From Patulibacter minatonensis DSM 18081 (GTDB lineage: Bacteria > Actinomycetota > Thermoleophilia > Solirubrobacterales > Solirubrobacteraceae), in contig NZ_KI912613.1 of NCBI RefSeq assembly GCF_000519325.1, forward strand, positions 2,730,652 through 2,794,651: DNA of 64,000 nucleotides. The letters run 5' to 3'. Below, piece by piece: positions 6,343 to 58,703 of the stretch. The notes below the pieces were generated by a model that worked only from the letters and a program-made list of their open reading frames with translations, had not been told where the DNA came from and did not search any database. The position numbers and the translations under genes were made by a program. The first letter of the stretch is position 1. Every line of letters begins with the position of its first letter.

Positions 6343-6506
6343 CGTGGTGACCGGCGCGGGTGGGCTTCAGGTGCAGCCGGTTCCGGTGCGCCACGGGTGG
6401 CGACCCGACCGCAGCGTACGGGGTCGGGCCGTGGGGCGCACCCGGCGCTGCGCCGGTCGCACGACGACGCCCGGGGCACGGGGCCGAGTCGTGTCACCAT
6501 GGGGCC

Positions 6507-10823: not shown

Positions 10824-12605
10824 TCAGTCGGCTGCGAGGACGCGGCGCAGGTCCGCGTCGAGGAGCTCGTGCCCCAGCTGCTGCTCGGACATGGGCCGCA
10901 GGGAGTGGTCGCGGCCCGCGAGCTCGACGACCTGGAGGCCCGGGCGCTCGCGGACGAGGTCGAGTGCCCCGTCGCGCTCGAGCTCTCCCCGGAGCGGCTC
11001 GTTGCCGGTGAAGATCAGCGAGACGAGGACGCCCGCGTCGGACTGGCGCTGCAGCGCCGCGGTGACCTGGCGGCGGATCTTCAGGGACTTCACCGCCCCG
11101 ACGGGGTAGTTCGCGATCGCCTTGAGGATCTCGATGATCCGTTCCCGCTCGATGTCGCCCCGCAGGACGCGCTTCCACTGGGACCGCTTGACGATCCGCT
11201 TGCCGACGCGGGCGTCCCGGACGTCCCCGAGGGCCGAGCTCCAGACGAGGGCACGGGCGTTGATCAGGACGGTCGACCGGACCCGGGGGTCCCCGAGCGC
11301 GGCGTTGAACCCCATCCACGCGCCGGAGCAGAGGCCCACGATCATGAAGGTGGACGGCAGGCCCCGGGCCACCACGAGGTCGAGCGCGGCGCGGACCTGG
11401 GCGACCACCGTCGGGTTGTGGAGCTCCTCGCCCGTGTGCGCGACGAGGTCCGGTCCGGGTGCGTCACCGAGACTGCCGACGTCGATCCGGACGGACGGGA
11501 CGCCGCCCGCCGCCCAGCGACGTGCGGCCTCGACCCACATGCGGTTGGGGCCGACGTGGCGCTGTCCTCCGGCGTTCAGGAAGACCACGGTCAGCTCGTG
11601 CGACCGGGGGCCGTCGGGCTCGGAGACGATGCCGAACACGCCGGGACCGCCGTCCGCGACCCGGAGCGGCGACTCGCGCACCCCGTCGAGGTCGAGCGTG
11701 TCGGCGCCGAGCGGTCCGCCCGGCGTGGTGGCTGGAGCGGCGGCGACCTCGTCGAGCCAGCCGTCGACCGTCGTCACGACCGCGGCGGGGAGGGTCGACG
11801 TCTGCGGGTGCTCGACCATCCGGCCGTACCCGTCGCCGTGGGCGGTCGAGACCGTCGCGCCGGAGGCCTCGAGGTGCGCGCGGAGCTTGGCGTCCACGGC
11901 CATGCCGTCGCGCTCGAGCAGCAGCACGCGGCGTCCGGCGAGGACCTCGGCGGGGACGGTCGTCGCGTCGGTGGCCCGGAGTCCCGCCTGGGTCTCGTCG
12001 GTGAGCAGGTAGCCGCCGGGCGCCAGGCGGGAGTCGGCGACCTCGACGTCGTCGATCTGCTCGCCGTGCTCGTCGATCGCGGCGGTGCTGCGCTCGAGCT
12101 GCGCGAACGCCTGGAGCTGCCGGATGACGGTGCGTCCCCTCGACGCGACGCCCCAGAGCGCGACGTCACCGATCGCGGAGGCGTCGTCGTGCCGCAGCCC
12201 GTCGACGACGACGAGGCCCGGGAGCCCGAGGGCGATCACCCGCACCTCCGGCGCCCCCTGCGACGTCGCCAGCGCGGTGGCGGCGGCGAGGATCCCCGCG
12301 CGCCACGCGCCGACGAGGTCCGGGTGCTTCGGGTCGCCCGCGCTGTCGCCGGAGCCCGGCAGGTCGATGCGGAGCACGGGGTGTCCGCGCCGCGCGAGGT
12401 GGTGCGCCCAGGTGCGGAGCGGTCGGTGGGCGCTGATGTCCTCCCAGCCCCAGGGGCCGATCAGCAGGATCGGCTCCCGTGCGGCGACGTCGTCCCGGGG
12501 CTCCGACAGGAGCGCGTACACGTCGAACGGGTCGGCCGGGACGTAGACGACGCGGTCGCTGACCCGGGGGTCGGTGGTGGAGGTGAGGAGCGGCGTGTGG
12601 TTCAA
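10824..12605 (-). CDS. Tandem alpha/beta hydrolase, C-terminal domain with Cys nucleophile
   Basis: 593 residues with two alpha/beta-hydrolase domains. Domain 1 (about 1-290) has the oxyanion-side WGWEDISAHRPLRTWAHHLARRGHPVLRIDLPGSGDSAG, but its nucleophile elbow reads ALGLPGL, so the Ser/Cys is missing. Domain 2 (about 300-593) has the elbow IVGLCSGAWMG, a G-x-C-x-G cysteine nucleophile, and a late His in AGRDHSLRP. This resembles the paired 'exosortase A-associated hydrolase 1/2' proteins found in other EPS loci, here fused. The only plausible start is TTG at 12605, overlapping the stop of the GH2 gene. It is the last gene of the long EPS operon and probably hydrolyses or transfers a thioester or ester. 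The substrate is unknown. Confidence 0.75.
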   Translation of the reverse strand: MNHTPLLTSTTDPRVSDRVVYVPADPFDVYALLSEPRDDVAAREPILLIGPWGWEDISAHRPLRTWAHHLARRGHPVLRIDLPGSGDSAGDPKHPDLVGAWRAGILAAATALATSQGAPEVRVIALGLPGLVVVDGLRHDDASAIGDVALWGVASRGRTVIRQLQAFAQLERSTAAIDEHGEQIDDVEVADSRLAPGGYLLTDETQAGLRATDATTVPAEVLAGRRVLLLERDGMAVDAKLRAHLEASGATVSTAHGDGYGRMVEHPQTSTLPAAVVTTVDGWLDEVAAAPATTPGGPLGADTLDLDGVRESPLRVADGGPGVFGIVSEPDGPRSHELTVVFLNAGGQRHVGPNRMWVEAARRWAAGGVPSVRIDVGSLGDAPGPDLVAHTGEELHNPTVVAQVRAALDLVVARGLPSTFMIVGLCSGAWMGFNAALGDPRVRSTVLINARALVWSSALGDVRDARVGKRIVKRSQWKRVLRGDIERERIIEILKAIANYPVGAVKSLKIRRQVTAALQRQSDAGVLVSLIFTGNEPLRGELERDGALDLVRERPGLQVVELAGRDHSLRPMSEQQLGHELLDADLRRVLAAD

Positions 12606-15208
12606 GGGCCTGGGGGTGTCGCGGGACGGACTGCGAGCGTATCCGTGACGTTCAGCGCCCGGACCAGCACCGAGGTCGGGGGCGGGGCGTCGGCCGACCG
12701 GGGGCGCAGGGCGATCCGGCGCGACGACCCGGGGGCGATCGCGAACGCGTCGTCCTCCGGGGTCCAGCCGGGGGCGGAGACGCGGACGCCGTCGGCGAGC
12801 GCCCGGGTCTTCAGCACGACCTCGGGACGCCCGTCGGCGTCGGTCCCGAGGGTGCCGGTCAGGCCGATGGACGCCGCGCTGCGACGGGTCAGCGGCCGGC
12901 CGGCCGGGAACGCGACGGCCTGGGAGAGCGGGTGCCCGCCGGGCTCCTCGAGCGTGGCGACGACCAGGTCGTGCGGCGCGGGGCCGAAGCGGTAGGCCCA
13001 GGCGCTGTCGACGAACCGGCCCACGAGCTCCTCGACGCGGCGCTCCACCGTCGCGCCCGGCGCGAGGACGAGCTCCTCGTCCCCGGACGCCACGGGCTGC
13101 TCGCCGTCCCGGAACAGCTGGACGCGGAGGACGACGGGGAGCGGCTCCCGGGTGTCGTTGGCGGCGTGCAGCGCGATGCCGCCGAGGCCCTCGTCGGTCG
13201 TCCACACCGCGACCGGCGCGAGCGCCCGGCGCAGGTGGTGCAGGGCGACCTTCGGGGCGCCGCGGTGGTCGACGAGGCCCCACCCGGCGCCGGGGACGAG
13301 GTCGCGCCACCAGAGCACGAGGCCGCCGCCGCACCGGGACGCCGCCCGGCGCCACTCGCCGAACGTCGCGGCCATCACCTCGCCGGTGACGGTCCGGGAG
13401 AGCTCGAGGTAGCGCTCGTGGTCGGTGCGGCGCAGCTCGCCGGGGTCCACGGCGTAGAGGTCGCGCAGGTAGTGGTCGCGGACGTCCTCGAAGTCCCAGC
13501 CGGCCCCGGCGTCGCGGGGGACGCCGGCCTTCCAGCGCGGGTGGTGGACGACGAGGTCGCCCGGCGCTCCGGGCAGCAGGTCGTGCAGGGCCTCGTCGTC
13601 GGGGACGTTGGCGAACGCGAGGGACTCGGAGGCGAAGCGGACGTCGGCGCGCCGGGCGTCCTGCAGCGGCCGGCGGTAGCCCCCGACCCCGTAGTAGTGG
13701 GTGATCCCGACGTCGGGCCGGATCGGCGGGTCGCCGCACGGGCTCGACGGCACGAGGATCGCGTCCGACGACGCGGCCTCCAGGGCGGCGGGCAGCAGCT
13801 CGCCGGGGATCGGGCCGCGCGCGAGCTCCGGGTCCAGGCCGAGCATCGCGACCTGCTGCTCGATCTCGCTGTCGCCGCAGACGACGACGGTGCTCGGGCG
13901 CGTGCCCATGCGGCCGAGCAGCTGCGCGAGCTCGGCCTCCAGCGCGGCGCGGAAGTCGTCGTCGACGACCGGGTAGTCCATGTTCGCGAGCGCCAGGTCC
14001 TGCCAGACCATGATCCCGAGCTCGTCGCAGAGCTCGTGGAAGCGCTCGGACTCGTAGACCCCGATGCCCGCGATGCGGAGGAGGTTCATCCCGGCGTCGC
14101 GGACGAGCTCCAGCTGCGCGCGGAGCTCGTCGTCCGTGGGGGCGAGACCGACGGGGTCCGCGCTCGTCCAGACCGCGCCGCGGGCGAAGACCGGGACGCC
14201 GTTGACGTGGAGGTCGAGGCCGTCGACCGTGACGTCGTGCCCGGGTGCGGCGCCGGGCGCGAGCGCGCGGAAGCCCGTGCGGTGGACGGGCGAGCGCACG
14301 ACCGACCCGTCGTCCAGGGTGACCGCGATCGCCACGTCGTGCAGGACGGGCTCGCCGTGGGTGTGCGGCCACCAGCGGGCGACGTCCGGCACGCGCAGGC
14401 CGCCGTGCACCAGCAGGAGCGGCTCGTCCCCCTCGAGGTCCAGGTGCGCGCGGTGGATCCCCGAGGGCCCCGTGAGCACGGCCTCCGCGGACGCGGCGGA
14501 CCTGCCGGCACCCGCGCGGAACGCGGCGTGGAGCTCGACCACGCCGTCGTCCCCGTCGACCGACGGCGACAGCGAGACCCCGGCGAACCCCCCGCGGTCC
14601 GCCCGCACCAGCCGCACGGGCCGCCACGGGCCGACGGGGGCGGGGACCGCCGAGAACCCGGGCGCGCGGCCCTGGAGCGTCGTGCGGATCCAGCGCAGGT
14701 TGCCGTCCTTCGCCACGCGGGTCCGCCACCGGGCCCGCGGCTTCCGGCGCTGCTTCAGGATCGGCAGCAGCGAGCGGAACCGGATCGCCAGCTCGTTCTC
14801 CGGCCGCACCGCGTCGGTGACGAAGGCCGTCGCCCCGACGAACATCGACGTGCTCGACGCGACCTGCTCGCCGTTGAGGAAGACGTCGGCGACGGTCGCC
14901 AGACCGTCGAGCTCGAGCTGCGCCTCCTCGCCGTCCTCGGGCCCCCACGGGAACGTCGTCCGGTACCACCAGTCGTGGGCGTCGGTGTCCAGCGTCTCGC
15001 CGGGCGCGAGGCGTCCGGCGGCGATCAGCGCGGACGCGGCGGTGCCGGGGACGGCGGCCGGCACCCAGTCGAGGGCGTCGATCGTCGTCGGGTCCTCGTG
15101 GGCGCCGGGGGCGCACGACGCGACCGACCAGCCGTCGGCGAGCGGGTCGCCGTCGGCCGGGACCGGGCCGACGGCCGTGCCGGCCGGCTCGGGGTCGCCG
15201 TCAGGCAC
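12602..15208 (-). CDS. GH2-family beta-mannosidase-like protein
   Basis: 868 residues with the beta-mannosidase domain order: an N-terminal sugar-binding jelly roll (WWYRTTFPWG... FLNGEQVASSTSMFVG), an immunoglobulin-like domain and a TIM barrel (LLRIAGIGVYESERFHELCDELGIMVWQDL). The acid/base motif, normally GNNE, reads VVCGDSEIEQQ: the Glu is kept but the Asn is replaced by Ser. The nucleophile candidate is the Glu in FASESLAF. C-terminal beta-domains follow. No signal peptide is visible, so it is probably cytoplasmic. GTG at 15208 overlaps the stop of the DUF1839 gene by 8 bp, which implies translational coupling. In context it may process or trim a glycoside intermediate rather than serve catabolism. 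Activity is uncertain. Confidence 0.8.
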   Translation of the reverse strand: MPDGDPEPAGTAVGPVPADGDPLADGWSVASCAPGAHEDPTTIDALDWVPAAVPGTAASALIAAGRLAPGETLDTDAHDWWYRTTFPWGPEDGEEAQLELDGLATVADVFLNGEQVASSTSMFVGATAFVTDAVRPENELAIRFRSLLPILKQRRKPRARWRTRVAKDGNLRWIRTTLQGRAPGFSAVPAPVGPWRPVRLVRADRGGFAGVSLSPSVDGDDGVVELHAAFRAGAGRSAASAEAVLTGPSGIHRAHLDLEGDEPLLLVHGGLRVPDVARWWPHTHGEPVLHDVAIAVTLDDGSVVRSPVHRTGFRALAPGAAPGHDVTVDGLDLHVNGVPVFARGAVWTSADPVGLAPTDDELRAQLELVRDAGMNLLRIAGIGVYESERFHELCDELGIMVWQDLALANMDYPVVDDDFRAALEAELAQLLGRMGTRPSTVVVCGDSEIEQQVAMLGLDPELARGPIPGELLPAALEAASSDAILVPSSPCGDPPIRPDVGITHYYGVGGYRRPLQDARRADVRFASESLAFANVPDDEALHDLLPGAPGDLVVHHPRWKAGVPRDAGAGWDFEDVRDHYLRDLYAVDPGELRRTDHERYLELSRTVTGEVMAATFGEWRRAASRCGGGLVLWWRDLVPGAGWGLVDHRGAPKVALHHLRRALAPVAVWTTDEGLGGIALHAANDTREPLPVVLRVQLFRDGEQPVASGDEELVLAPGATVERRVEELVGRFVDSAWAYRFGPAPHDLVVATLEEPGGHPLSQAVAFPAGRPLTRRSAASIGLTGTLGTDADGRPEVVLKTRALADGVRVSAPGWTPEDDAFAIAPGSSRRIALRPRSADAPPPTSVLVRALNVTDTLAVRPATPPGP

Positions 15209-16172
15209 GTCCTGCCTGCAGGCGCGTCATCGCCTCGTCCCACGAGGCCGCCATCCGGTCGACGATCGGCTCGTGGTCGAACGCGCGGCGGCGGGCGATC
15301 CGGAACGACAGGAGCTTGCTGTCCTCCACGAGGGCGGCGAGGGGCTCGCGCGCGGCGGTGCTCCCGTCGGCGTCGAGCCACTCGAGGTGGCTCCCGAGCA
15401 GCTCGAACGTCGATCCGATCATGCGCACGGTCGCGAAGACGTAGTCGGCGCGGGTCGTCGGGTCGGCGGCCGCCAGGTCGTCCATCGACGCGCCCAGCGC
15501 GGCGGAGAACCGGGTGAACGGGTTGCCCGCGGGCAGCCGCTGCAGGTGGTGGTGCGTGTAGCGGCGCGCGGCGTCCCGGAGCTCGTCGCCCTGCAGCGCG
15601 GGGCCGGCGTCGAAGCGCACGAGCTCGGTGTAGGGCGGCAGGGTCTCGGGGCCCCACTCCTCGCCGGTCCTGAGCGCCCCGCGGTAGTCCGCGCCGGAGA
15701 GCTCGAAGTACCCGGCGTTGTGGAAGTACCGCAGCGTCTCGGCGTCCGGGTCGATCGCCTCGACGCCGACGGTCGTCTTCACGTGCTGGGTGCCGTGGCT
15801 GAGCCCGGCGGTGTCCGGCAGGAACCACGCGTCCAGCTCGACCAGCACCGAGCGGTCGTGGCGCAGCTGCTCCTCGAGCTGGGCCTCGAGCGACCGGTAC
15901 TGCTGCATCTCGTGGATCTCGATGCCGTACAGGGCCTCGATCTCGTCGAACCGCGGCTTGAAGAACGTCCACTGGTCGCCCTCGAAGTCCCCGCGGACCG
16001 TGGAGCCCATCGCGGCGAGGGGCTCGAGCCCGCGCGCGTGCACGAGCTCGATGTAGACGTCGGTCCAGCAGTTCGTCTCGCGGTACGCGCGGGTCTCGTC
16101 GTGCGAGGTGTGCGGGACGTAGGTCTGCGGGTCCAGCCCGAGGAGGCTGACCGCCCGCCCACCGGTGCTCAT
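15201..16172 (-). CDS. DUF1839 family protein
   Basis: A 323-residue soluble protein matching the DUF1839 pattern from memory: N-terminal LLGLDPQTYVPHTSH and ETNCWTDVYIELVHARGLEPLAAMGSTVRGDFEGDQWTFFKP, then LVELDAWFLPDTAGLSHGTQHVKTTVGV, and YFHNAGYFEL. Genes of this family are commonly found next to amino acid:[carrier protein] ligases. The biochemical role is unknown to me; acceptance or transfer of the carrier-bound aminoacyl group is an inference from gene order. Its ATG overlaps the ligase stop codon as ATGA (16169-16172). That, with the 8-bp overlap with GH2 at the other end, places it firmly inside the operon. Confidence 0.82.
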   Translation of the reverse strand: MSTGGRAVSLLGLDPQTYVPHTSHDETRAYRETNCWTDVYIELVHARGLEPLAAMGSTVRGDFEGDQWTFFKPRFDEIEALYGIEIHEMQQYRSLEAQLEEQLRHDRSVLVELDAWFLPDTAGLSHGTQHVKTTVGVEAIDPDAETLRYFHNAGYFELSGADYRGALRTGEEWGPETLPPYTELVRFDAGPALQGDELRDAARRYTHHHLQRLPAGNPFTRFSAALGASMDDLAAADPTTRADYVFATVRMIGSTFELLGSHLEWLDADGSTAAREPLAALVEDSKLLSFRIARRRAFDHEPIVDRMAASWDEAMTRLQAGRA

Positions 16173-17101
16173 GCGGGCCAGAGCTGCTCGCGGACGTCCT
16201 CCGGCCACGCCTGTGGGTCGAGCCCGTGGGTCTTCAGCAGCGCCAGCACGATGCGCTCGTGACCGAAGCCGAGGCACGCGGTGTGCGCGACCTCGCCGGT
16301 CGAGGTCTCGATGCCGTAGACGGACGCGAAGTGGTCCTGGTGGTAGTTGAACGACGCGACGGCCGTGGGCTCGGGGCCCGCGATCTGCACGAGGATCTCG
16401 AACTTCAGCTCCTGCTCCTTCTGCGACGCGGCCATCATGCGGCCGCGGCGGCCGAAGAACGGGTCGGTCGCGACGTCGAAGTTCGCGTCGAGGCCGAGGC
16501 CGCGGAGGAGGTCGATCGCGCGGTCGCGCCACGCGTCGCGCCAGGTGGCGACGGTCTCGGGCTCCGCGACGCGGACGAGCTCGCGCATGTGGAACATCTG
16601 CAGCCGCGCCGGGTCGCCGGAGGGCTCGTGACGGAAGACGTACGCGCCGCCCGGGTCGACGGTGACGCCGCCCTCGGGGAGCGGGCCGCGGGCCGCGACC
16701 GCGGGGTAGACCGGGTAGCAGGCGGCCGGCATCAGGACGAGGTCGGTCTGGTGCTGGTGCTCGCTCCAGTCCTCGTGCTTGGAGGCGGCCTCGAACATCT
16801 GGGCGGCCTGGCCCTCGGTGCCCTCGAACGAGAACACGGTGCCCGCCAGGTGCGGGAACGACTTCAGGTAGCCGGTGGACTCGAGGTTGTGCCGGGGGAG
16901 GACCGGCGGGAAGCGCAGGGCCTCCGCCTCGTCCGGGATCGCCGTGCGCGTGACGAGCTCGTCGAACCCGTTGCGGACCTTCTCGAACGTGCCGCTGCGG
17001 CCGTAGACGCCGTGGACGCCGGTGCGGACCAGCAGGCCGGCGGCGACCAGCTCCTCGAGGTAGGCGTCCTGGTCGGGGGTGCCGGGGCGGAACTCGGGCA
17101 T
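16169..17101 (-). CDS. Amino acid:[carrier protein] ligase (seryl-tRNA synthetase-like)
   Basis: A 310-residue class II aminoacyl-tRNA-synthetase-like catalytic domain without the N-terminal tRNA-binding arm of true SerRS. Characterised homologues activate glycine or alanine and load it onto the phosphopantetheine of a dedicated carrier protein instead of tRNA. Visible motifs are PAACYPVYP, VFRHEPSGDPARLQMFHMRE (motif 2), FFGRRGRMMAASQKEQELKFE and ACLGFGHERIVLALLKTHGLD (motif 3). The three zinc ligands of the family map to Cys128, Glu159 and Cys276. One base separates its ATG from the stop of the dehydrogenase gene upstream. The partner carrier is encoded two genes upstream (18290-18979). Specificity for Gly or Ala cannot be read directly. 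Confidence 0.88.
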   Translation of the reverse strand: MPEFRPGTPDQDAYLEELVAAGLLVRTGVHGVYGRSGTFEKVRNGFDELVTRTAIPDEAEALRFPPVLPRHNLESTGYLKSFPHLAGTVFSFEGTEGQAAQMFEAASKHEDWSEHQHQTDLVLMPAACYPVYPAVAARGPLPEGGVTVDPGGAYVFRHEPSGDPARLQMFHMRELVRVAEPETVATWRDAWRDRAIDLLRGLGLDANFDVATDPFFGRRGRMMAASQKEQELKFEILVQIAGPEPTAVASFNYHQDHFASVYGIETSTGEVAHTACLGFGHERIVLALLKTHGLDPQAWPEDVREQLWPA

Positions 17102-17102
17102 G

Positions 17103-18290
17103 TCAGACCTCCTTGGCGATCAGCAGCAGGCTGGCGTTCGTCTCGTGGATGCGGTCGTTGGCGACCATCAGGCAGCCGGACATCGCGTCGCGGAGCTGGC
17201 GGCCGATCGAGAACGGCGTGTCGTTCTTGAAGCCGACGATGCCACACACGGCCATCGCGTCCTGGCAGACCCGGGGGGCCTGCGTCGACGTGGCCGTCTT
17301 CAGGGTGTTGAAGCGCAGCTGGACGCCGAGGCGGCCGAGCTGCTCGTAGTCGGGCTCGTCGGCGATCTCGAGGAACTCCGTCAGCGCGCTCCTGACCTCG
17401 GCGCGCAGCAGGTTCAGCTCGCCGAGGACCTTCGACAGCTCGTTGGCGATCGGCAGGGCCTCGCCCGGCTTGCGGCGGGCCGACGCGCGGACGAAGGCGC
17501 GGGCGCGCTCGAACGCCTCGGTGGCGATGCCGAGCCAGACGTGCGACCAGAGGACGTGGGAGATCGGGACCATCGACGCGCTCGAGACGATCGCGAACGC
17601 GGTGGTCAGGACCTGCTCCTCCGGTACGGTGCCGCGGACGACGAAGCCCGGCGAGCAGGTGCCGCGCATGCCGAGCGGGTCCCACGTGCCGGTGAGCTCC
17701 ATCCGGCGCTGCTCGCGGTCGGCGAGCACGAGCACCTGGTCGCTGCCGTCCGCGTCGGCGCCGCGGCGCAGGGTGATCAGGAGGTCGTCGGCGTGCTCGC
17801 CGTAGCTGACGGTCGGCGCCTGCTTCTCGAAGGTGACGGTGCCGTCGCCCTGGTACTCGGCGGCGGCGATCGACATCCCCATGTTGCCGCCGGTGCCGAC
17901 CTCGGAGGTGACCGACGCGATCAGGCGCTGCTCGGACACGACGCTCCGCAGGTGCCCGTCGAACCACGAGCCGGGCTCGCGGTGCCGCACGAGGGTGGCG
18001 ACCTGGATGTGGTGCATCGCGAAGATCAGGCCGCTGGAGCCGCAGGCGCGGCCGAGCAGCAGGCACGCCTGGGAGACCGCGCGGAGCGAGACGCCGGCGC
18101 CGCCGAGGTCCGTCGGGACGAGGGCGCTGAGCGCGCCGGCCTCCTTCAGGGCGTCGAACGTCTCGACCGGGAAGCGGCCCTCGCGGTCGACCTCGACGGC
18201 GTTGGGGGCGGCGGCCTCCTTCGCGATCCGGCCGACCGTGGCGACGTACTCCTGGTCGACGGCCTCGTCGACCTGCGCGATCGTGCTCAT
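17103..18290 (-). CDS. Acyl-CoA dehydrogenase-like flavoprotein
   Basis: A 395-residue protein with the full acyl-CoA-dehydrogenase fold. It has an N-terminal helical domain (VPTDLGGAGVSLRAVSQACLLLGRACGSSGL), a middle beta-domain with FAD-side signature (SVTSEVGTGGNMG; TWDPLGMRGTCSPGF) and a C-terminal helical bundle ending RIHETNASLLLIAKE. In the last segment the Glu aligns with the catalytic base of the usual YEGT motif. In this context it more likely oxidises the aminoacyl group on the adjacent carrier protein than a fatty acyl-CoA; that is inference from synteny. Start and stop abut both neighbours: TGATG with the carrier gene, and a 1-bp gap to the ligase gene. Confidence 0.85.
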   Translation of the reverse strand: MSTIAQVDEAVDQEYVATVGRIAKEAAAPNAVEVDREGRFPVETFDALKEAGALSALVPTDLGGAGVSLRAVSQACLLLGRACGSSGLIFAMHHIQVATLVRHREPGSWFDGHLRSVVSEQRLIASVTSEVGTGGNMGMSIAAAEYQGDGTVTFEKQAPTVSYGEHADDLLITLRRGADADGSDQVLVLADREQRRMELTGTWDPLGMRGTCSPGFVVRGTVPEEQVLTTAFAIVSSASMVPISHVLWSHVWLGIATEAFERARAFVRASARRKPGEALPIANELSKVLGELNLLRAEVRSALTEFLEIADEPDYEQLGRLGVQLRFNTLKTATSTQAPRVCQDAMAVCGIVGFKNDTPFSIGRQLRDAMSGCLMVANDRIHETNASLLLIAKEV

Positions 18291-18979
18291 CAGGACTCCT
18301 TCAGGCTGTCCACCGCGGTGGCGATGCTGTCGATCGACTGGAACACCGAGCGCTTGAGCATCTCGTCGGGGAACTCCACGTCGAAGCCCTCCTCGAGCGC
18401 CAGCATCACGTTGACGCTGGCGTGCGAGGTCATCCCGGCGGCGTAGAGGTCGTCGTCGCGACCGAGCGACGCTGGATCACCGCTCAGCCGCGCGTGGTCG
18501 GCGAGGATCTGGCGGATGGTGTCGTCGGACGCCGAACTCATGGCGGCGAGTGTAACCGCCGTCCCTGGGGGCGGAGCAACCTCCGGGTGCGGTCCTGCGG
18601 TGCGGGCGACGGCGACCGCGGACGCCGTGTCGCGTGTCGTCGTGACGCTCACCGCGACGGGGCCGAGACCCTGCCGGGCCGCGACGTCCGCGGCGGGTCC
18701 GCGCCACCGCAGCGCCACGGTGCGACCCGACCGCGGGACGACCTCGATCGCCGTCCACGGCACCCCGACGTCGCCGGGACGGAGGACCTTGAACGCCGCC
18801 TCCTTCGCAGCGAAGCACCCGGCGAGCCTCCGCGGATCGGGCGACCCGTCGGCGCGGGCGGCGGCGGCCTGCTCGGCCCGGGTGAAGACCCGGTCCAGGT
18901 ACCGCGGGCCGCGTGCCGCGACGGCGTCCCGCACGTCCCCGACCGACGCGAGGTCGACCCCGGTGCGCAGGCCCGCCAT
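18290..18979 (-). CDS. AcpS-type phosphopantetheinyl transferase fused to an acyl carrier domain
   Basis: One open frame of 229 codons. Residues 1-125 match holo-ACP synthase: GVDL with the Mg-binding Asp9, RYLDRVFTRAEQ, and CFAAKEAAFKVL with Glu60. The usual SLSHT motif is altered to SVTTT. After a linker of about 20 residues, residues 147-229 form a carrier domain (DDDLYAAGMTSHASVNVMLALEEGFDVEFP) whose phosphopantetheine attachment site is Ser185. An internal ATG at 18541 could start a free carrier protein, but no good ribosome binding site precedes it, so fusion or dual expression are both possible. The gene lies 21 bp after a glycosyltransferase gene and overlaps the dehydrogenase start. 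It supplies and activates the carrier used by the ligase at 16169-17101. Confidence 0.8.
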   Translation of the reverse strand: MAGLRTGVDLASVGDVRDAVAARGPRYLDRVFTRAEQAAAARADGSPDPRRLAGCFAAKEAAFKVLRPGDVGVPWTAIEVVPRSGRTVALRWRGPAADVAARQGLGPVAVSVTTTRDTASAVAVARTAGPHPEVAPPPGTAVTLAAMSSASDDTIRQILADHARLSGDPASLGRDDDLYAAGMTSHASVNVMLALEEGFDVEFPDEMLKRSVFQSIDSIATAVDSLKES

Positions 18980-19000
18980 GCCGGCCGCGCCCGGGGCGTC

Positions 19001-20167
19001 TCAGCCGTGCGGCTGGACGCCGCGGCTGTCGAGGACCTCGTCGTACACCGCCCGATAGCGGTGGACCCACGCGGAGGCCGTGAAGTCGGCCTCGTACCGC
19101 GCGCGGGCGGCGAGCCCGAGGGCACGACGGCGGGCGTCGTCGCCGAGCAGCTCGACGATCGCGGCGGCCAGGGGCGCCGGCTCCGGGGTCGTCCCGAGGA
19201 GCAGGCCGACCTCGGCGTCGACGAGCTCGGGCATCCCGCCGACGGCGGTCGCGATCAGCGGCAGTCCGGCGGCCGCGGCCTCGATCAGCGCCATCGGCAG
19301 GCCCTCGGCCCGCGACGGCTGGATGAAGACGTCGGCGGCGTCCAGGACCTCCATCACGTCGGAGCGCTCGCCGAGGATATGGAACGCGTCGGGGCCGAAG
19401 CGCCGCTCGGCCTCCTCGAGGCGCGGGCGCTCCCCGCCGTCCCCGGCGATCATCATCACGGCGTCGGGGACGGCCTCGCGGACGGCGGCGAACGCCTCGA
19501 TCGCGACGTCGTGGCCCTTCTCGGGCCGCAGGACGGAGAGCATGGCGATCACGGGCGCGTCGGGGGAGATCCCGCGCTCCTCGCGGATCGCCCTGCCGGC
19601 GCCGGGCCGGGCGATCCGCCCGATCGCGTTGCGGATCGCGACGACCCGCCCCGCGCGCTCGAACGGCGAGCGGAGGAAGCGGGTCCGGTCGGCCTCGCTG
19701 ATCGCGATGATGCGGTCCGCCGCCAGGCGCCGGATGGCGTTCGTGACCGCCGCGACCTTGTGGTTGTAGAAGCCGGGCATGACCTCGGCGCGGTGCATCG
19801 TCGAGACCATCGGGATGTTCTGGCGCATCGCCGCGATCCCGCCGATCACGTCGGCGTACTCGAGGTGCGTGTGCAGCAGGTCGGGCGAGACCTCGCGGAG
19901 GTGCCGGTGCACGGCGCGCACGTCGTCGCGACCCACCAGGGACGTCGTCGGCACGTGGGTGACGGGCACCCCGGCCTCCATCGCCCGGAACCCGGCCTGG
20001 CCGGTCGCGGACCGGCCGATGTGGCCGACGGTGCAGCGGATGCCGGCCTCGTGGGCGGCGACGGCGAACTCGGCGACGACGGCCTCCGCGCCACCCGACG
20101 CGAGGTTGCCGGCGAGCACGTGCACGTGCAGGGGGCGGTCGGAGCCCCGGCGGATCGTGGAGGTCAT
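19001..20167 (-). CDS. GT4-family glycosyltransferase
   Basis: A 388-residue GT-B retaining transferase. The N-terminus has HVHVLAGNLASGGAEAVVAEFA, the usual GG loop for acceptor and phosphate contact. The C-terminal domain has AMLSVLRPEKGHDVAIEAF and the EX7E element in SRAEGLPMALIEAAAAGLPLIATAVGG. ATG at 20167 overlaps the flippase stop as ATGA. The sugar and linkage are unknown; it is one of at least three transferases in this operon and would add a residue to the lipid-linked repeat unit on the cytoplasmic side. The carrier-protein gene follows after only 21 bp, linking glycan assembly and the aminoacyl module in one transcript. Confidence 0.88.
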   Translation of the reverse strand: MTSTIRRGSDRPLHVHVLAGNLASGGAEAVVAEFAVAAHEAGIRCTVGHIGRSATGQAGFRAMEAGVPVTHVPTTSLVGRDDVRAVHRHLREVSPDLLHTHLEYADVIGGIAAMRQNIPMVSTMHRAEVMPGFYNHKVAAVTNAIRRLAADRIIAISEADRTRFLRSPFERAGRVVAIRNAIGRIARPGAGRAIREERGISPDAPVIAMLSVLRPEKGHDVAIEAFAAVREAVPDAVMMIAGDGGERPRLEEAERRFGPDAFHILGERSDVMEVLDAADVFIQPSRAEGLPMALIEAAAAGLPLIATAVGGMPELVDAEVGLLLGTTPEPAPLAAAIVELLGDDARRRALGLAARARYEADFTASAWVHRYRAVYDEVLDSRGVQPHG

Positions 20168-21939
20168 CGGCGGAGGCGGTCCCGGTAGGCGCGGTTCATG
20201 GCGAAGTGCTGGGCTGCGAGGTCGAGGGCGATGTCGGCCGCGCTGCGGGTGTCCTCGACGTCCGCCGTGTCGGGCGTCGCGGTCACCCCGGCGACTGCCG
20301 GCGCGGGTGCTGCGGGTCCTGCGGCCGCTGCGGGACCAGCGGGTGCTGCGACGGTCTCCTGGACCGCGGGCGCGAGCGGCGCGGGGGAGAACGACCCCTC
20401 CGGCTGGGCCAGGTGCTGCTGGGTCGCCGGGACGATCGCAGGGGAGAGCGTGACAGCCGGGGCGGTCCGGAGTGCGGGCGTGGCGCGCTGCCGCTTGAGC
20501 ACGCGGTCGACGACGGGGTCCAGCCCGAGGTCCGTCGCGGTCCGGGTCAGCATTCCGGGCGTCACGAGCCGCAGCGCCAGGACGGTGCCGACGAGACCCA
20601 GCACGAGGCCGAGCAGGAGCTCGAGGACCGGCGGCGCGTTCCACAGGACGACGCTGCCCAGCGCCGCCCCGGCCGCCGCCCCGATCCCGGCGACGATCGA
20701 GGGGAGCAGCGAGAAGAGGATCCCGGACGACCGGATCCCGAGCGACATCCGCGCCCAGACCACGAAGGACGCCGCGTAGACCACCGCCGCGCCGGTCCCG
20801 ACCCACGCCACGGCGGACAGCCCGCTGTCGGAGGCGATCGACATGCCCACGTAGAGGATCGGGACGTGGATCAGGTGCAGCCCGACCATGCCCCACTGCT
20901 TGCCCTGGGCCTTGCCGGCGTCCCCGAGCGGGAAGATCAGGGTGTGGACGAACGCGGTGACCGCGACCGCCCGCAGCACGGGGGCGGCCTGCCGCCACGT
21001 GTCGCCGAGCAGCACGTGGATCATCGGGTCGGCGAGGACGAGCATCAGCGTTCCGACGGGCACCGTGTAGAGGGAGAGGACGGTGATCAGCTTCAGCGTC
21101 GCCTCGTTCATCCCGTTCCCGCGGCGCCTGGAGAGCGCCGGGAACGCGACGCCCGCGACCATCCACGTGATGTTCGAGATCAGGAGCTCGGGCAGCCGGT
21201 ACGCGATCGTGTAGACGCCGAGCGCGATCGCGCCGAGCACGTGTCCGACGACGATCGTGTCCGCGCGGGCGGACAGCAGCGCGACGACCTCGAGCGCGGC
21301 CGCGGCGCCGCCGTAGCCGATCATCGTCCGGGCGATCGCCTTGTCGAAGACGAGCCGGGGGCGGAAGCCCGTCATGGCCCACAGCAGCGCGACCCAGGTG
21401 GCGGTGCCGGCGAGGAGGCCGATGACGAGCGACTCCGCCCCGGCCCCGGTGGCCGCCAGCGTGATCGAGACCGCGGCCTGCGCGACGGCCTGCCCGACCT
21501 GCGGGACGATCCGCCGGTTGAACGCCATGTCGCGCAGCAGCAGGCCGTCGTGGACGTTCGCCAGGGCGGCGATCAACAGGTTCAGGACGCCGAGCCGGAA
21601 CAGCCACGCGGCGTCGGGCGCGCCGAAGAACGAGGCGATCGGCCCGGCGAGCGCGACGCCGATCAGGGTCAGCACGAGCGCCAGGCCCGCGTTGACGGTG
21701 AAGGCGACGTGGACGCGGCGGGAGACGCCCTCCTCCTGCTCGTAGACGACCGCGGCCTGCATGCCGAGGTCGCTGCCGAGCTGCAGGAACGCGAGGAACG
21801 CGACGACCGCCCCGAGGGTGCCGAACTCGCCCGGCGCGAGCAGGCGCGCGAGCACGAGCACGGCGACGAGGCCGAGCACCTTGCTCATCGCGAGCGACGC
21901 GACGGACCACAGCACGCCGCGGCGCATGGCGCTACCCAC
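20164..21939 (-). CDS. Wzx-like polysaccharide flippase (MOP superfamily)
   Basis: A 591-residue integral membrane protein with about 12-14 TM segments. It opens MRRGVLWSVASLAMSKVLGLVAVLVLARLLAPGEFGTLGAVVAFLAF, diagnostic of MOP/lipopolysaccharide-type flippases. It should move the undecaprenyl-linked repeat unit across the membrane. An unusual Ala/Pro-rich cytoplasmic tail of about 120 residues (from VTLSPAIVPATQQ to the end) extends beyond the membrane domain. GTG at 21939 is chosen because GGGAGGAG lies 8 bp upstream; an ATG at 21927 is the alternative. The start overlaps the end of the Wzy-like gene. Confidence 0.87.
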   Translation of the reverse strand: MGSAMRRGVLWSVASLAMSKVLGLVAVLVLARLLAPGEFGTLGAVVAFLAFLQLGSDLGMQAAVVYEQEEGVSRRVHVAFTVNAGLALVLTLIGVALAGPIASFFGAPDAAWLFRLGVLNLLIAALANVHDGLLLRDMAFNRRIVPQVGQAVAQAAVSITLAATGAGAESLVIGLLAGTATWVALLWAMTGFRPRLVFDKAIARTMIGYGGAAAALEVVALLSARADTIVVGHVLGAIALGVYTIAYRLPELLISNITWMVAGVAFPALSRRRGNGMNEATLKLITVLSLYTVPVGTLMLVLADPMIHVLLGDTWRQAAPVLRAVAVTAFVHTLIFPLGDAGKAQGKQWGMVGLHLIHVPILYVGMSIASDSGLSAVAWVGTGAAVVYAASFVVWARMSLGIRSSGILFSLLPSIVAGIGAAAGAALGSVVLWNAPPVLELLLGLVLGLVGTVLALRLVTPGMLTRTATDLGLDPVVDRVLKRQRATPALRTAPAVTLSPAIVPATQQHLAQPEGSFSPAPLAPAVQETVAAPAGPAAAAGPAAPAPAVAGVTATPDTADVEDTRSAADIALDLAAQHFAMNRAYRDRLRR

Positions 21940-23401
21940 GGAGGCCGGCTCCTCCCGGGGCGCGGGCGGGCCACGGGACCCGACGGACGGCGGGGGAGCC
22001 GTCGTCCTCGGCGTCGCACGACCGCGCCTTCGCGGCGGCGACGGCGAGCATGCCGGGCCCGAGGGCGATCAGCACCCACCACACGCGGTCGCTGCCGTTG
22101 GCGACGAACGTGGACCCGGCGAGCGCCCCGAGCTGGCCGACGAACACCGCCGAGGCCATGTGGGCGAGATCGTGCCGCCCTCGTCGTCGCCATCGTCTGG
22201 CGGCGACCAGGCTGCTGCCGATGCAGGAGCCGAACGACGCGATCAGGAGCGCGAGGCCGATCACCCCGTTCTCGGTCAGCGCCTGCAACCAGATGTCGTG
22301 GGTCACGAGGGCCTGGTCGATGATCAGGGACGCGGACTGCAGGTCGTCGGCGTCCTGGGCGTACTCGTGCTCGACGACGACGAAGTTGCCGGTGCCGACC
22401 CCGACGATCGGGTTGCGCTTGGCGACCTCGACCGCGACGCGCCAGATGTCGGTGCGGCCGGTGCCGGTGGTGTCGTCCTTCGTCAGGCGGTCCATCGCGC
22501 GGGGCTGGAGCGCGAGGAACCCACCGAAGAGGACCAGGGCGACGAGCAGCGCCGCGAGGATCCGGGCCCGGTAGCCGCGGAGCACGACGAGCGCGGCGAG
22601 GATCATCACGACCGCCGCGATGATGCCGCCGCGCGACTGCGTGGCCACGAGGCCGTAGAGGAGGATCGGCACGGCCCCGAGCAGGGCGACGCGCCAGAGC
22701 CAGTGCATGCGCAGGGCCAGGAGCCCGGTGATGATCGCCAGCGCCCCGACGATGTCCGCCGCCAGGTAGTTGGGGTCCGTGATGCCGATCGCCAGCCGGC
22801 CCTCGCCGGGGTCCAGCGACGCGACCTCGGAGACGTTCGCCGTGCTGCCGGTCGCGAACGCGATCAGCACCGCCAGGGTCGCCCCGGTGACGAACCAGGC
22901 GAGCACGACGACCATGTCGCGCGGGCGCGTCACCGCCATCACGAGCACCGGCAGGACGCCGGCGGACACATACCACGCCTTCAGCGACTCGACGGTCGCG
23001 GCGGTGTCGGTCGACCAGAGGTAGGAGAGGGTGCTCCAGACGATCATCAGCGCCGACGCCAGCAGCACCCATCTGGTCCGCCACAGCGCGGTGCGGATGT
23101 GCGGCAGACGGTCGACGAGGGTCCCGGCCCACCCGGCGAGCAGGACCACCGACGTCCCGGTGACGGCGCCGTGCGTCCCCGGCGCGCCGGCCAGGAACAG
23201 CGCGACGATCCAGATCCCGACCGCGACCGGCAGGTCGAGCAGGATGAACGCCACGAAGACGAGGCCGCCGATCGAGGCGACGCCGAGGCGGGGCTCGATC
23301 GCCGCTGCGACACCGGCGATCGCGGCACCGCCGAGGAGCCCCAGGAGGATCAGGGGCGGGGGGAGCCGCGAGAGGCGGTCGAAGGTCTGGACGGTGCTCA
23401 T
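21932..23401 (-). CDS. Wzy/O-antigen ligase-family polymerase
   Basis: A 489-residue membrane protein with about 11-12 TM helices. The Wzy_C-type signature is intact: QSRGGIIAAVVMILAALVV, a large periplasmic loop containing RTDIWRVAVEVAKRNPIVGVGTGNFV, then THDIWLQALTENGVIGLALLI. It would polymerise or transfer lipid-linked repeat units on the outer face of the membrane. ATG at 23401 overlaps the upstream glycosyltransferase stop (ATGA). The longer open frame upstream of this start is a shadow. A second protein of this family is encoded at 29453-31552. Confidence 0.86.
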   Translation of the reverse strand: MSTVQTFDRLSRLPPPLILLGLLGGAAIAGVAAAIEPRLGVASIGGLVFVAFILLDLPVAVGIWIVALFLAGAPGTHGAVTGTSVVLLAGWAGTLVDRLPHIRTALWRTRWVLLASALMIVWSTLSYLWSTDTAATVESLKAWYVSAGVLPVLVMAVTRPRDMVVVLAWFVTGATLAVLIAFATGSTANVSEVASLDPGEGRLAIGITDPNYLAADIVGALAIITGLLALRMHWLWRVALLGAVPILLYGLVATQSRGGIIAAVVMILAALVVLRGYRARILAALLVALVLFGGFLALQPRAMDRLTKDDTTGTGRTDIWRVAVEVAKRNPIVGVGTGNFVVVEHEYAQDADDLQSASLIIDQALVTHDIWLQALTENGVIGLALLIASFGSCIGSSLVAARRWRRRGRHDLAHMASAVFVGQLGALAGSTFVANGSDRVWWVLIALGPGMLAVAAAKARSCDAEDDGSPAVRRVPWPARAPGGAGLRG

Positions 23402-24561
23402 CGGCGAGGAGGCAGGGTCTCGCGGTAGACGTGCTCCACCGTGCGGGTCACCGCCTCCCAGGTGTAATACTCGGCGTGACGCGCCGTCGCACGCGCTGCG
23501 CGATCTCGTGCAGCGTCCGGATCGGCCAGGACGGCGCCCAGCGCGGCGGCCATCAGCGCCGGATCGCGCGGCGGGACCTGGAGCGCGGTGCCCTCCGGGA
23601 TCGCGTCCGGCACCCCGCCGACGGCGGTCGCGACGATCGGCACGCCCGACGCCATGTACTCGAGGAGCGCGACGGGGAAGTTCTCGAGGTCCGACGCCAG
23701 GAGCGCGACGTCGCAGGCGCAGAGGACGGCCGGGACGTCCTCGCGGCGGCCGAGCCAGAGGACGGCGTCCGTGACGCCGAGCTCGTCGGCGAGCCGGTCG
23801 AGCTCGGACCGGGTGCCGGTGCGCGCGTCGCCGTCGGGGCCGGCGCCGACGACGACCAGGCGGGCCCTCGGGTGGTCCCGGAGCAGCAGCTGCAGGGCGC
23901 GCAGCGCGGTGTCGTGGCCCTTCTCGGGGCGGAGCATCGCGCTGATGACGATCGCGTGGTCGTCGGGGGCCAGGCCGAGGGACGCACGGGTCGCCGTCCG
24001 CTCGGCGTCGGTCGGGCGCGGCATCGTGGGCGCGCCGTTGGCGATCACGCGGATCTTGTCGGCGGGCACGCGCTCGTGCGCGACCAGGGCGTCCCGCGAC
24101 CACGACGACGGGCAGATCACGCGGTCGGCGAACGGCGCGACGATGTACGGGTTGACCGCGGCCTCGAAGCCGCCCTCGCGTATCCCGCCCGAGCGCAGGA
24201 CCGGCGTGTGCTCGTGCGCGACGAGGATGCGCGCTCCGCCGAGCCCCTTCAGGAGCGGGCCCCACGCGTTGGAGCCGTAGAGGTGGGTGTGGACGACGTC
24301 CGTGCGCCGGCGGCGGATCTCGCGGACCGCCGGGGTCCACTCCCAGGCGTTGCGCATCGGTCCGCGGTCCAGCGGCAGCACGCGGACCCCGCGCTCGCGC
24401 AGGGCGGCGACGGCCGGGCTGTCCTCGGTCTCGCGCGAGCCGACGACCGTGACGTCGTGCTCGAGCGCCTGTCGGGCGGCGAGCTCGACGACGGCCTTCT
24501 CGGCCCCGCCGCCGCTGACGCGGTCGATGACCTGGACGATGCGCAGGCGGTCGGCGCTCAC
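23398..24561 (-). CDS. GT4-family glycosyltransferase
   Basis: 387 residues with a GT-B fold. N-terminal: RIVQVIDRVSGGGAEKAVVELAAR. C-terminal: VISAMLRPEKGHDTALRALQLLL and the EX7E-containing ASDLENFPVALLEYMASGVPIVATAVGGVPDAIPEG. GTG at 24561 overlaps the preceding stop (GTGA). It is a cytoplasmic or membrane-peripheral enzyme that extends the lipid-linked glycan; donor and acceptor are unknown. It resembles the transferase at 19001-20167 in both halves, which suggests an old duplication within the locus. Confidence 0.88.
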   Translation of the reverse strand: MSADRLRIVQVIDRVSGGGAEKAVVELAARQALEHDVTVVGSRETEDSPAVAALRERGVRVLPLDRGPMRNAWEWTPAVREIRRRRTDVVHTHLYGSNAWGPLLKGLGGARILVAHEHTPVLRSGGIREGGFEAAVNPYIVAPFADRVICPSSWSRDALVAHERVPADKIRVIANGAPTMPRPTDAERTATRASLGLAPDDHAIVISAMLRPEKGHDTALRALQLLLRDHPRARLVVVGAGPDGDARTGTRSELDRLADELGVTDAVLWLGRREDVPAVLCACDVALLASDLENFPVALLEYMASGVPIVATAVGGVPDAIPEGTALQVPPRDPALMAAALGAVLADPDAARDRAARATARHAEYYTWEAVTRTVEHVYRETLPPRR

Positions 24562-25769
24562 GACGCCGGCCTCCGCAGCGGGCGCGGGGCGCTCTCGCGG
24601 AGCTCCGCCCGACGGGGCAGGAGCTTCACGGCGGTCGTGAGGAACCCGAGGCCCCAGGTCGTGTGCATGGTCACGAGGATCGCGGCGAGCGGGCCCGCGT
24701 CGCGCGGTGCCGGGCGCAGCCGGGCGACCTGGGCGGCGACGGCCGCGCCGTACACGGCGGTCAGGACGCGCCCGACGCGACCGACCCGTCCCGGGAGGAG
24801 CGACGACGCGAGGACGACGGGCAGGAGCGACGCCGTCAGGCGGATCGGCCCGCAGCTGCCGGGGTGGCGCGTGAACGTCCACGCGCGGTACTCGCCGTAG
24901 CGCCGGTACTGCGTGCCGAGGCCCTTCAGCGAGTTCCGGGGCACGTAGCGCGCCGCCATGTCGCTGCGGCAGACGAGCCGCCAGCCGCGCTCGAGCGCGC
25001 GGGACGCCATCTCGGAGTCCTCGTTGACGATCCAGCGCGGGTCCCAGCCGCCGAGCGCGTCGAGCGTCTCCCGCCGCCAGACGCCGACGAAGACGCTCGT
25101 GGTGAGCTCCCACTCGTCGACGTCGGACGCCTCGTCCTCGCCGCGCCACTTGTCCGACGCCCCGCGGCCGAGGCTGCCGCCCAGGGCAACGGCGACGAGC
25201 CCGGACCAGCGGTCGCGACCCACGGGGACCGGGGGGCCGGAGACCCAGTGGACGTCGCCCCGTGCCAGGCGCTCGATGCCGAGGCGCAGGTAGTCGGGCG
25301 CGTAGTCGGTGTGGGCGTCCATCCGCGCCACGTAGCGGCCCCGGGCGGCGCGCAGGCCGATGTTCAGGGCGGTCGGGACGATGCGCTCGGGGTTGTGGAG
25401 GACCCGGATGCGGGGGTCGGACTCCGCCATCCGCTCGAGGATCCCGACGCTGTCGTCGGTCGATCCACCGTCGACGAACAGCAGCTCGAGCGTGCCCTCG
25501 TGGTCCTGCGTCCGCATCGCCTCGACGGTGCGCTCGAGGTGCGCGGCCTCGTTCAGCACCGGGATCAGGACGCTGACGTCGACCTCGGGATCCGCACCGG
25601 CGAGCGGGCTCCCTTCGACCTCGGGATCCGCGCCCGCGCCGGCCACGCGGGGGCCCCCATCGACCTCGGGATCCGCGCCCGCGCCGGCCGCGCGGGGGCC
25701 CCCATCGACCTCGGGATCCGCACCCGCGAGGGGGCTCCCGTCCACGGGACGTGCGTCGTCGGGCCTCAC
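24558..25769 (-). CDS. GT2-family glycosyltransferase with repetitive N-terminus
   Basis: 403 residues. After a repetitive leader of about 60 residues, a GT-A GT2 domain starts at VSVLIPVLNEAAHLERTVEAM. It has the nucleotide-binding ELLFVDGGSTDDS, the metal-binding DAHTDYAP and the later acidic NEDSEMASRALERGWRL. Two or three C-terminal hydrophobic helices suggest membrane association. The leader is four copies of a 12-15-residue unit (ending AGADPEV), encoded by the 25579-25745 DNA repeat. GTG at 25769 after TAAGGT is the best start, though translation might begin nearer the domain. The gene opens the tightly coupled part of the operon. Confidence 0.82.
   Translation of the reverse strand: MRPDDARPVDGSPLAGADPEVDGGPRAAGAGADPEVDGGPRVAGAGADPEVEGSPLAGADPEVDVSVLIPVLNEAAHLERTVEAMRTQDHEGTLELLFVDGGSTDDSVGILERMAESDPRIRVLHNPERIVPTALNIGLRAARGRYVARMDAHTDYAPDYLRLGIERLARGDVHWVSGPPVPVGRDRWSGLVAVALGGSLGRGASDKWRGEDEASDVDEWELTTSVFVGVWRRETLDALGGWDPRWIVNEDSEMASRALERGWRLVCRSDMAARYVPRNSLKGLGTQYRRYGEYRAWTFTRHPGSCGPIRLTASLLPVVLASSLLPGRVGRVGRVLTAVYGAAVAAQVARLRPAPRDAGPLAAILVTMHTTWGLGFLTTAVKLLPRRAELRESAPRPLRRPAS
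25579..25745. repeat. Coding tandem repeat, units of 36-45 bp
   Basis: Four copies begin TCGACCTCGGGATCCGC at 25579, 25615, 25660 and 25705 (spacings 36, 45, 45). They encode the repeated (V/E)(D/E)G..AGADPE leader of the GT2 protein on the minus strand. All length steps are multiples of three, so copy-number change would keep the frame. Confidence 0.85.
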
Positions 25770-27598: not shown

Positions 27599-27946
27599 GG
27601 GCCGGACGGTCGGTCTCCACCATCGGTCCAGACGGTGATCCGCAGGACGAATCGCGGTCCCCTCCCGGCCGTCACCGGGGGTGGACCGCCTCATCCACCG
27701 AACGGTGGACGAAGGTCCGATCACGCGGGTCGGCCACGCGGCCGACGATGCGCTCCCCGCGCCCCGGCCGGAATCGCCGGCGGGGCGGCCTCGTCCGCGC
27801 GGCGCGGGCGACCCCCGGACGGGGTGCACGCCATGTTTCACCGGCCGGAGGCCCCACACCGGTTTCGTATGCTCGCCCTCCCGTCCCGCGGGAGACGCCC
27901 CCTCGGCCGCCGAGGACCCGGTGTCGTCCGCCCGGCGGCACTCACC
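27599..27946. promoter_or_regulatory. Divergent promoter region with dyad motif
   Basis: A 348-bp gap between two divergent EPS genes. It holds a palindrome with 7-bp arms (TCCACCG-AA-CGGTGGA, 27694-27709) and a related half-conserved site TCCACCATCGGTCCA at 27616-27630. Similar dyads occur upstream of other surface genes in this window (33502, 43558, 60395). No gene is seen in the gap. Confidence 0.55.
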
Positions 27947-29446: not shown

Positions 29447-29452
29447 GCCGCG

Positions 29453-58416: not shown

Positions 58417-58703
58417 GCGTTCGGGCTCCCGACCAGGGGCTGCTTGGTGGTGGTCACGGCCTCGGAGCCGGACGCCGACGCGGGCGCGTCGGGATCGGCC
58501 GGCGGCTCGGGGGAGGCGGGATCGCCGCCCTCGTCGCCGTCGTCCTTGTTGCGGGCGGCCTTCGCCCTGCGGGACAGGCGCTTGTGCTGCCAGGTCATCC
58601 AGAAGTACCCGACGGCGATGACGATCGCCGGGACGACGAGGAAGGCGGTGAAGAAGAGGGCGAAGACGAGCGAGACGACGAGCGCCGTGAAGACGGCCTT
58701 CAT
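58413..58703 (-). CDS. Small membrane protein, hypothetical
   Basis: 96 residues. A long hydrophobic N-terminal segment (ALVVSLVFALFFTAFLVVPAIVIAVGYFW), enough for one or two TM helices, precedes a basic HKRLSRRAKAARNK and an acidic, Pro/Ala-rich tail. ATGA overlap with the preceding gene and overlap with the synthase start show translational coupling. It is possibly an accessory subunit of the synthase. No family is recognised. Confidence 0.7.
   Translation of the reverse strand: MKAVFTALVVSLVFALFFTAFLVVPAIVIAVGYFWMTWQHKRLSRRAKAARNKDDGDEGGDPASPEPPADPDAPASASGSEAVTTTKQPLVGSPNA

Follow-up and report, generated by a model that had tools for sequence, protein, structure and literature searches.

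A candidate aminoacyl-tailoring cassette in a Wzx/Wzy-type exopolysaccharide operon of Patulibacter minatonensis

We analysed a 64,000-nucleotide stretch of the genome of Patulibacter minatonensis DSM 18081, a soil actinobacterium (hereafter the window; contig NZ_KI912613.1, positions 2,730,652 to 2,794,651), in which the genes of a carrier-protein module follow directly on those of an exopolysaccharide operon. The module consists of a fused AcpS-carrier protein frame, an acyl-CoA-dehydrogenase (ACAD)-like flavoprotein, a seryl-tRNA synthetase (SerRS)-like ligase, a DUF1839 protein, a family 2 glycoside hydrolase (GH2) and a double hydrolase. We consider it fairly probable that it serves to tailor a Wzx/Wzy-type exopolysaccharide by linking glycine or alanine, possibly in oxidised form, to an amino sugar through an amide bond. 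This proposal draws on gene content, operon packing, co-inheritance of the module genes, a match of the modelled DUF1839 fold to known amide synthases, and conserved residues.

The module as a unit within the operon

The genes of the chain, all on the minus strand, are listed here in order of transcription.

24558..25769, minus: family 2 glycosyltransferase (GT2), first in the overlapping chain (PF00535, E 1.8e-25; orthologues in six congeners)
23398..24561, minus: family 4 glycosyltransferase (GT4; PF00534, E 8e-32)
21932..23401, minus: Wzy-like polymerase/ligase (PF04932, Wzy_C, E 1e-23)
20164..21939, minus: Wzx flippase of the MOP family (PF13440, Polysacc_synt_3, E 1.1e-62)
19001..20167, minus: second GT4 glycosyltransferase (PF00534, E 9e-34)
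18569..18979, minus: AcpS-type phosphopantetheinyl transferase, N-terminal part of the AcpS-ACP frame (PF01648, E 3.7e-14)
18290..18538, minus: carrier protein (ACP), C-terminal part of the same frame (NF005480, 106.5 bits, cut-off 72)
17103..18290, minus: ACAD-like flavoprotein lacking the dehydrogenase glutamate (PF02771, E 5e-13)
16169..17101, minus: SerRS-like amino acid:[carrier protein] ligase (NF005479, 419 bits, cut-off 357)
15201..16172, minus: DUF1839 protein, a predicted papain-like carrier-protein-dependent amide synthase (PF08893, E 9e-90)
12602..15208, minus: GH2 beta-mannosidase-like enzyme (PF22666; 5n6u, E 3e-101)
10824..12605, minus: double alpha/beta hydrolase, two folds in one chain (TIGR03100/TIGR03101 below cut-off; AlphaFold2 and Foldseek)

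Pfam and NCBIfam scans find every gene named in the original prediction at these coordinates, and its account of their order and tight packing holds. From GT2 to the double hydrolase, the successive stop-to-start spacings are -4, -4, -8, -4, +21, -1, +1, -4, -8 and -4 bp. A transcript break had been thought conceivable at the junction between the upstream GT4 gene and the AcpS-ACP frame (19001-18979); the spacing there is just 21 bp, and a consensus scan of the interval from 10.8 to 25.8 kb detected no terminator on the minus strand. By gene overlap, the module does sit within a Wzx/Wzy-type operon, as had been claimed. The start of GT2 is ambiguous, with candidates at 25769, 26003 and 26024.

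Outside Patulibacter, the module genes travel together. A ligase-alignment search of about 85,000 species genomes returned upwards of 580 relatives, the best 80 of which were kept. Together with 26 loci found via DUF1839 in related genomes they yielded 69 loci with enough flanking sequence, 13 of them chosen by DUF1839 itself and 56 by the ligase only; the sample is biased towards ligases at least 51% identical to that of the window. A carrier protein occurs in all 69, the flavoprotein in 68, DUF1839 and GH2 in 67 each, and the double hydrolase in 51. Among the loci selected by the ligase only, 54 of 56 hold both DUF1839 and GH2, giving a five-gene core of ACP, flavoprotein, ligase, DUF1839 and GH2 that is spread over Actinomycetota, Proteobacteria, Myxococcota and Acidobacteria. 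The exceptions, L066 (an Actinomycetes metagenome-assembled genome, MAG) and L071 (Conexibacter sp. DBS9H8), carry ligase and carrier without DUF1839, a context for the ligase that is distinct from the core. For ligase, flavoprotein, DUF1839 and GH2, pairwise distances show correlations of 0.71-0.91, as expected under co-inheritance, to which shared species history also contributes. DUF1839 itself is scarce: it was found in 3 of 396 genomes of the phylum and 24 of 146 of the family, and in none of seven congeners searched. Two separate ligase genes were seen within one genome in a Methylocystis (G560, locus L122), in C19 and in C15.

Predicted activities of the module proteins

The DUF1839 protein provides the structural argument for amide formation. 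An AlphaFold2 model built from 57 homologues reached a mean pLDDT (predicted local distance difference test) of 95.2 and a pTM (predicted template modelling score) of 0.92. Searched against the PDB with Foldseek, it gave 18 matches with E < 0.001, which comprised only AziU2/U3, CtaG and CcbD. VIA-align placed the AziU, CtaG and CcbD structures at Z 17.2-19.5 over 265-284 residues, with the next entry at 7.6. The resemblance to CcbD spans the full-length fold (Z 19.5, 284 residues, 3.5 Å), and CtaG from the closthioamide pathway and AziU2/U3 from the azinomycin pathway fall in the same fold class (Z 17-19); these two serve other natural-product pathways, and their acceptors are not polysaccharides. 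By sequence, a single DUF1839 query retrieved nothing from the PDB and the 57-sequence profile no chain up to E 10, and we predict the kinship to carrier-dependent amide synthases from fold alone. The BtrH structure does not appear in the Foldseek listing for DUF1839, which leaves room for kinship with that enzyme. Our full-text literature search found no paper stating a link between DUF1839 and amide synthases.

CcbD and its counterpart LmbD use a Cys-His-Glu ping-pong mechanism to couple carrier-bound proline or alkylproline to a thiooctose amine, and they have an arginine patch for the carrier (review, PMC12945683). DUF1839 shares with them an invariant cysteine and, presumably, a carrier-bound amino acid as donor and an amino sugar as acceptor; it differs in that CcbD and LmbD act in a lincosamide small-molecule pathway and not on a polysaccharide. 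In the numbering of the 322-residue model, Asn33, Cys34, Lys131, His150, Asp161 and Arg293 are invariant in 57/57 DUF1839 sequences, position 132 is Thr or Ser in all 57, and His129 is kept in 55. Positions 294-295, beside the invariant Arg293, are mostly Arg or Lys. A 2023 survey counted DUF1839 as one of the papain-like families whose triad is Cys-(Thr/Ser)-His, and conjectured a role in glycan processing (PMC10318531).

In the loading half of the module, a single open frame encodes both AcpS and ACP, with no stop between them (18290-18979, minus strand), a fusion seen in none of 36 AcpS frames of related loci; the genome holds four ACPS-family genes, the module AcpS among them. The phosphopantetheine serine of the carrier lies in the motif GMTSHAS and is kept in 103/103 sequences. 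The ligase matches 3mey (Bradyrhizobium Bll0957) at E 2e-79; at 310 residues it lacks the N-terminal tRNA-binding domain and aligns only to about residues 310-509 of type-2 SerRS. C128, E159 and C276, which we take to be Cys/Glu/Cys zinc ligands, are invariant in 14 sequences and the same in Bll0957. Characterised relatives of this ligase use glycine or alanine as substrate. Among the matches listed, its nearest named relatives are from Solirubrobacteraceae and Conexibacter MAGs.

Of the 45 ACAD matches in the genome, the flavoprotein is the weakest. The catalytic glutamate of the [FY]EGT motif (YEGT/FEGT), present in three classical ACADs encoded by this genome, is replaced by another residue in 14 of 14 module proteins. 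The best solved relatives of its profile are DnmZ (4zxv) and a flavin adenine dinucleotide (FAD)-dependent oxidoreductase (3m9v/4kcf), at E of about 1e-24. DnmZ and its relatives oxidise the amines of nucleotide amino sugars. These flavin N-oxygenases, together with the nitrososynthase 3mxl, share with the module protein an ACAD fold without the dehydrogenase glutamate, though the similarity is remote. The original prediction had the loaded amino acid oxidised to an imino-acyl group. This now appears as one option only: with the glutamate absent and N-oxygenases among the nearest solved relatives, classical alpha,beta-dehydrogenation seems unlikely, and N-oxygenation would be at least as likely as imino-acyl formation, with C-N oxidation as another option. 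An ordinary dehydrogenase that yields an imino-acyl or glyoxylyl carrier, with that acyl as the decoration, is a sub-question of our proposal, and we regard it as unlikely. It can point to the ACAD fold, to a short-chain ACAD structure among the four best profile matches (4e-23), to the ACAD-like nature of L-prolyl-carrier dehydrogenases and to a weak match of the NCBIfam RedW model; it has to contend with the missing glutamate in all 14 proteins and with glycine, which has no beta carbon.

The last two proteins are putative hydrolases. The GH2 protein resembles beta-mannosidases (5n6u) over nearly its full length; its putative catalytic glutamates, E448 and E528, are kept in 18/18 sequences, and inspection by eye showed no signal peptide. 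The double hydrolase (AlphaFold2 model, pLDDT 86.6) gave only generic alpha/beta-hydrolase matches in Foldseek. In its C-terminal half, the Cys of the second nucleophile elbow (GxCxG) is invariant and one His nearly so; the first elbow is degenerate in the window protein. It resembles hydrolases 1 and 2 of exosortase-A loci (TIGR03100 and TIGR03101) joined in one chain, with scores of 70 of 168 and 56 of 203 bits that fall below both cut-offs. No exosortase turned up at the locus, where no search aimed at one was made.

Polysaccharide genes around the module

Association with flippase genes extends beyond the window. In 10 of 35 whole genomes, a gene for a protein of PF13440, the family of Wzx, lies no more than 15 kb from the ligase, against 0.85 expected (P 5.5e-9); when relatives were collapsed to 20 groups, the median P was 7e-5 and the worst 0.001. 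These figures make it very improbable that an unrelated carrier-protein module came to lie beside a polysaccharide operon by chance, even if the other 25 genomes have no such flippase near the module. Bosea offers an operon analogous to that of the window, with WecG, GT4, Wzx, a hydrolase, GH5, GT4, ACP, flavoprotein, ligase, DUF1839 and GH2 on one strand, and the genes detected in Kaistia and Mesorhizobium follow a matching order. Among the genes that flank the module, flippases are plentiful, as are GT4 glycosyltransferases (10 of 96 and 8 of 88). In Rhizobium dioscoreae (L096, 6071-8181), genes for an EpmA-like class II synthetase and a radical-SAM EpmB-like protein adjoin the module.

Six congeners share the polysaccharide genes of the window (GT2 56-66% identical, Wzx 43-70%). 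In the stretches read, all six carry two GNAT (GCN5-related N-acetyltransferase; PF13480) domains within these genes and none carries the module; the window operon has no such GNAT and holds the module between GT4 and a downstream gene, which also trails the polysaccharide operon in three of the six congeners. The tandem GNAT domains (L157, 12506-14764; L159, 10711-12950) are weakly similar to the BspF acyltransferase model and are likely glycan acyltransferases. Loss of the congener GNATs from this strain was considered and rejected, as two related GNAT genes lie elsewhere in the window genome; the contrast is therefore a difference at the locus and not proof of functional replacement. It is compatible with an interchangeable acylation slot in the operon.

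The components of a Wzx/Wzy-dependent locus are present together in the window: flippase, polymerase, initiating transferase, glycosyltransferases and chain-length protein. Two features adjoin the chain.

26105..27640, minus: initiating undecaprenyl-phosphate sugar transferase (PF02397, E 2e-50), upstream of the overlapping chain and not part of it
8669..10414, minus: probable secreted protein of unassigned function; in congeners it likewise lies downstream of this operon

Divergent from the operon, on the plus strand (27545-31552), lie genes for a Wzz/AAA-type chain-length protein and, after it, a second Wzy_C protein; the latter may be a second polymerase or ligase of the polysaccharide locus. 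Elsewhere in the window, MshEN domains are fused to a GT2 glycosyltransferase (56158-58830, minus strand), possibly placing this enzyme under cyclic di-GMP control, and a large protein with CBM_4_9 and GH123 N-terminal-like domains is encoded near the polysaccharide locus (2776-6366, minus strand).

Proposed function and its alternatives

In our proposal the acceptor, the order of steps, the oxidation product and the roles of GH2 and the double hydrolase are inferred, and the pathway would run as follows. AcpS would prime the carrier protein, and the ligase would activate a small amino acid, glycine or alanine, and load it on the carrier as a thioester. The flavoprotein might then oxidise the loaded aminoacyl group or its amine, attack on nitrogen being more likely than alpha,beta-dehydrogenation. 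The DUF1839 cysteine would accept the acyl group and hand it to the amine of an amino sugar in a glycan precursor, in the manner of CcbD; Wzx would flip the decorated precursor and Wzy polymerise it. Trimming or editing of glycan and acyl intermediates would probably fall to the GH2 enzyme and the double hydrolase. That the loaded amino acid passes to the glycan or its precursor, as originally predicted, gains support from the fold that DUF1839 shares with amide synthases including CcbD. In its most specific form, the cassette would be a polysaccharide counterpart of the lincosamide condensing step and place an N-oxygenated glycyl (or alanyl) amide on an exported polysaccharide, which we offer only as a rather doubtful suggestion. 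We know of no polysaccharide that carries such an amide.

Several observations weigh against a polysaccharide-tailoring role. For DUF1839 the triad has been published in the order Cys-Thr/Ser-His, whereas that of CcbD is Cys-His-Glu, and CcbD, CtaG and AziU all serve small-molecule antibiotics, so that the fold is no proof of a polymer acceptor. Among the genes of the overlapping chain, none that would form an amino sugar was recognised, and the roles given to GH2 and the double hydrolase are conjectural. Moreover, the Agrobacterium and Rhizobium copies examined have no adjoining polysaccharide genes: the neighbours are thiC/thiG and an MsbA-like ATP-binding cassette (ABC) exporter in Agrobacterium, and an EpmA/EpmB-like pair, resembling elongation factor P modification enzymes, and a sugar importer in Rhizobium. 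The polysaccharide context of the original prediction therefore stands as a linkage to flippases and glycosyltransferases in several unrelated lineages and fails as a general rule; the link is common, not obligatory.

Two other functions come into consideration. The module might make a small diffusible aminoacyl-amino-sugar or related metabolite (a signal, a siderophore-like compound or an antibiotic) that is exported without being polymerised; a shared need for sugar precursors would then explain its place in polysaccharide loci. The antibiotic pathways of the nearest folds, the Agrobacterium module with its exporter gene and a cytosolic GH2 that could act on a small glycoside all suit such a product, whereas the tight overlap with Wzx/Wzy genes in the window, the flippase operon of Bosea and the difference between GNATs in congeners and the module in the window at the same operon speak against it; we hold it to be a less probable alternative. 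The loaded amino acid might instead go to another cell-surface amine, on a lipid, peptide or polyamine, with the polysaccharide genes as mere operon neighbours. Papain-like amide synthases differ in their acceptors (CtaG and AziU are not amino-sugar enzymes), and in rhizobia the module also stands alone. The core GH2, beta-mannosidase-like and present in 67 of 69 loci, points to a sugar, as does the statistical flippase link, and an amine other than that of a sugar strikes us as an improbable acceptor.

Chemistry of this kind has also been predicted in print, independently of our analysis. A note in proof from 2010 predicted amino-acid ligation to a cell-surface amino sugar, proposed monooxygenation as well, and listed as partners of the ligase an ACP, a redox enzyme, a conserved ORF, a glycosidase and saccharide genes (PMC2922099). 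From this gene set we infer that the conserved ORF is DUF1839. With the systems of Bll0957 and the Agrobacterium Atu2574 neighbourhood, the window module shares a ligase and a carrier, both above the NCBIfam cut-offs, as well as the partners and the predicted chemistry (PMC2922099); the window adds the overlap with Wzx/Wzy genes, the single AcpS-carrier frame and the structural assignment of DUF1839. Full-text searches for Atu2574, Bll0957, DUF1839 or the ligase name found no functional paper, in agreement with the original statement that no end product is established; its functional idea, having been published in 2010 (PMC2922099), is largely a rediscovery. What is new is the structural support for the amide-synthase step, a quantified core that includes GH2, the absence of the dehydrogenase base, the flippase enrichment, the contrast between GNATs and module, and the AcpS-ACP fusion, unique among 36 frames.

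Biochemical data and crystal structures for amino acid:[carrier protein] ligases date back to 2010, and the literature that we searched names no product. The DUF1839 assignment and the acyltransferase contrast with the congeners now make a specific and cheap test possible. Given that the cassette occurs in at least four phyla, an answer would extend to many soil and plant-associated bacteria.

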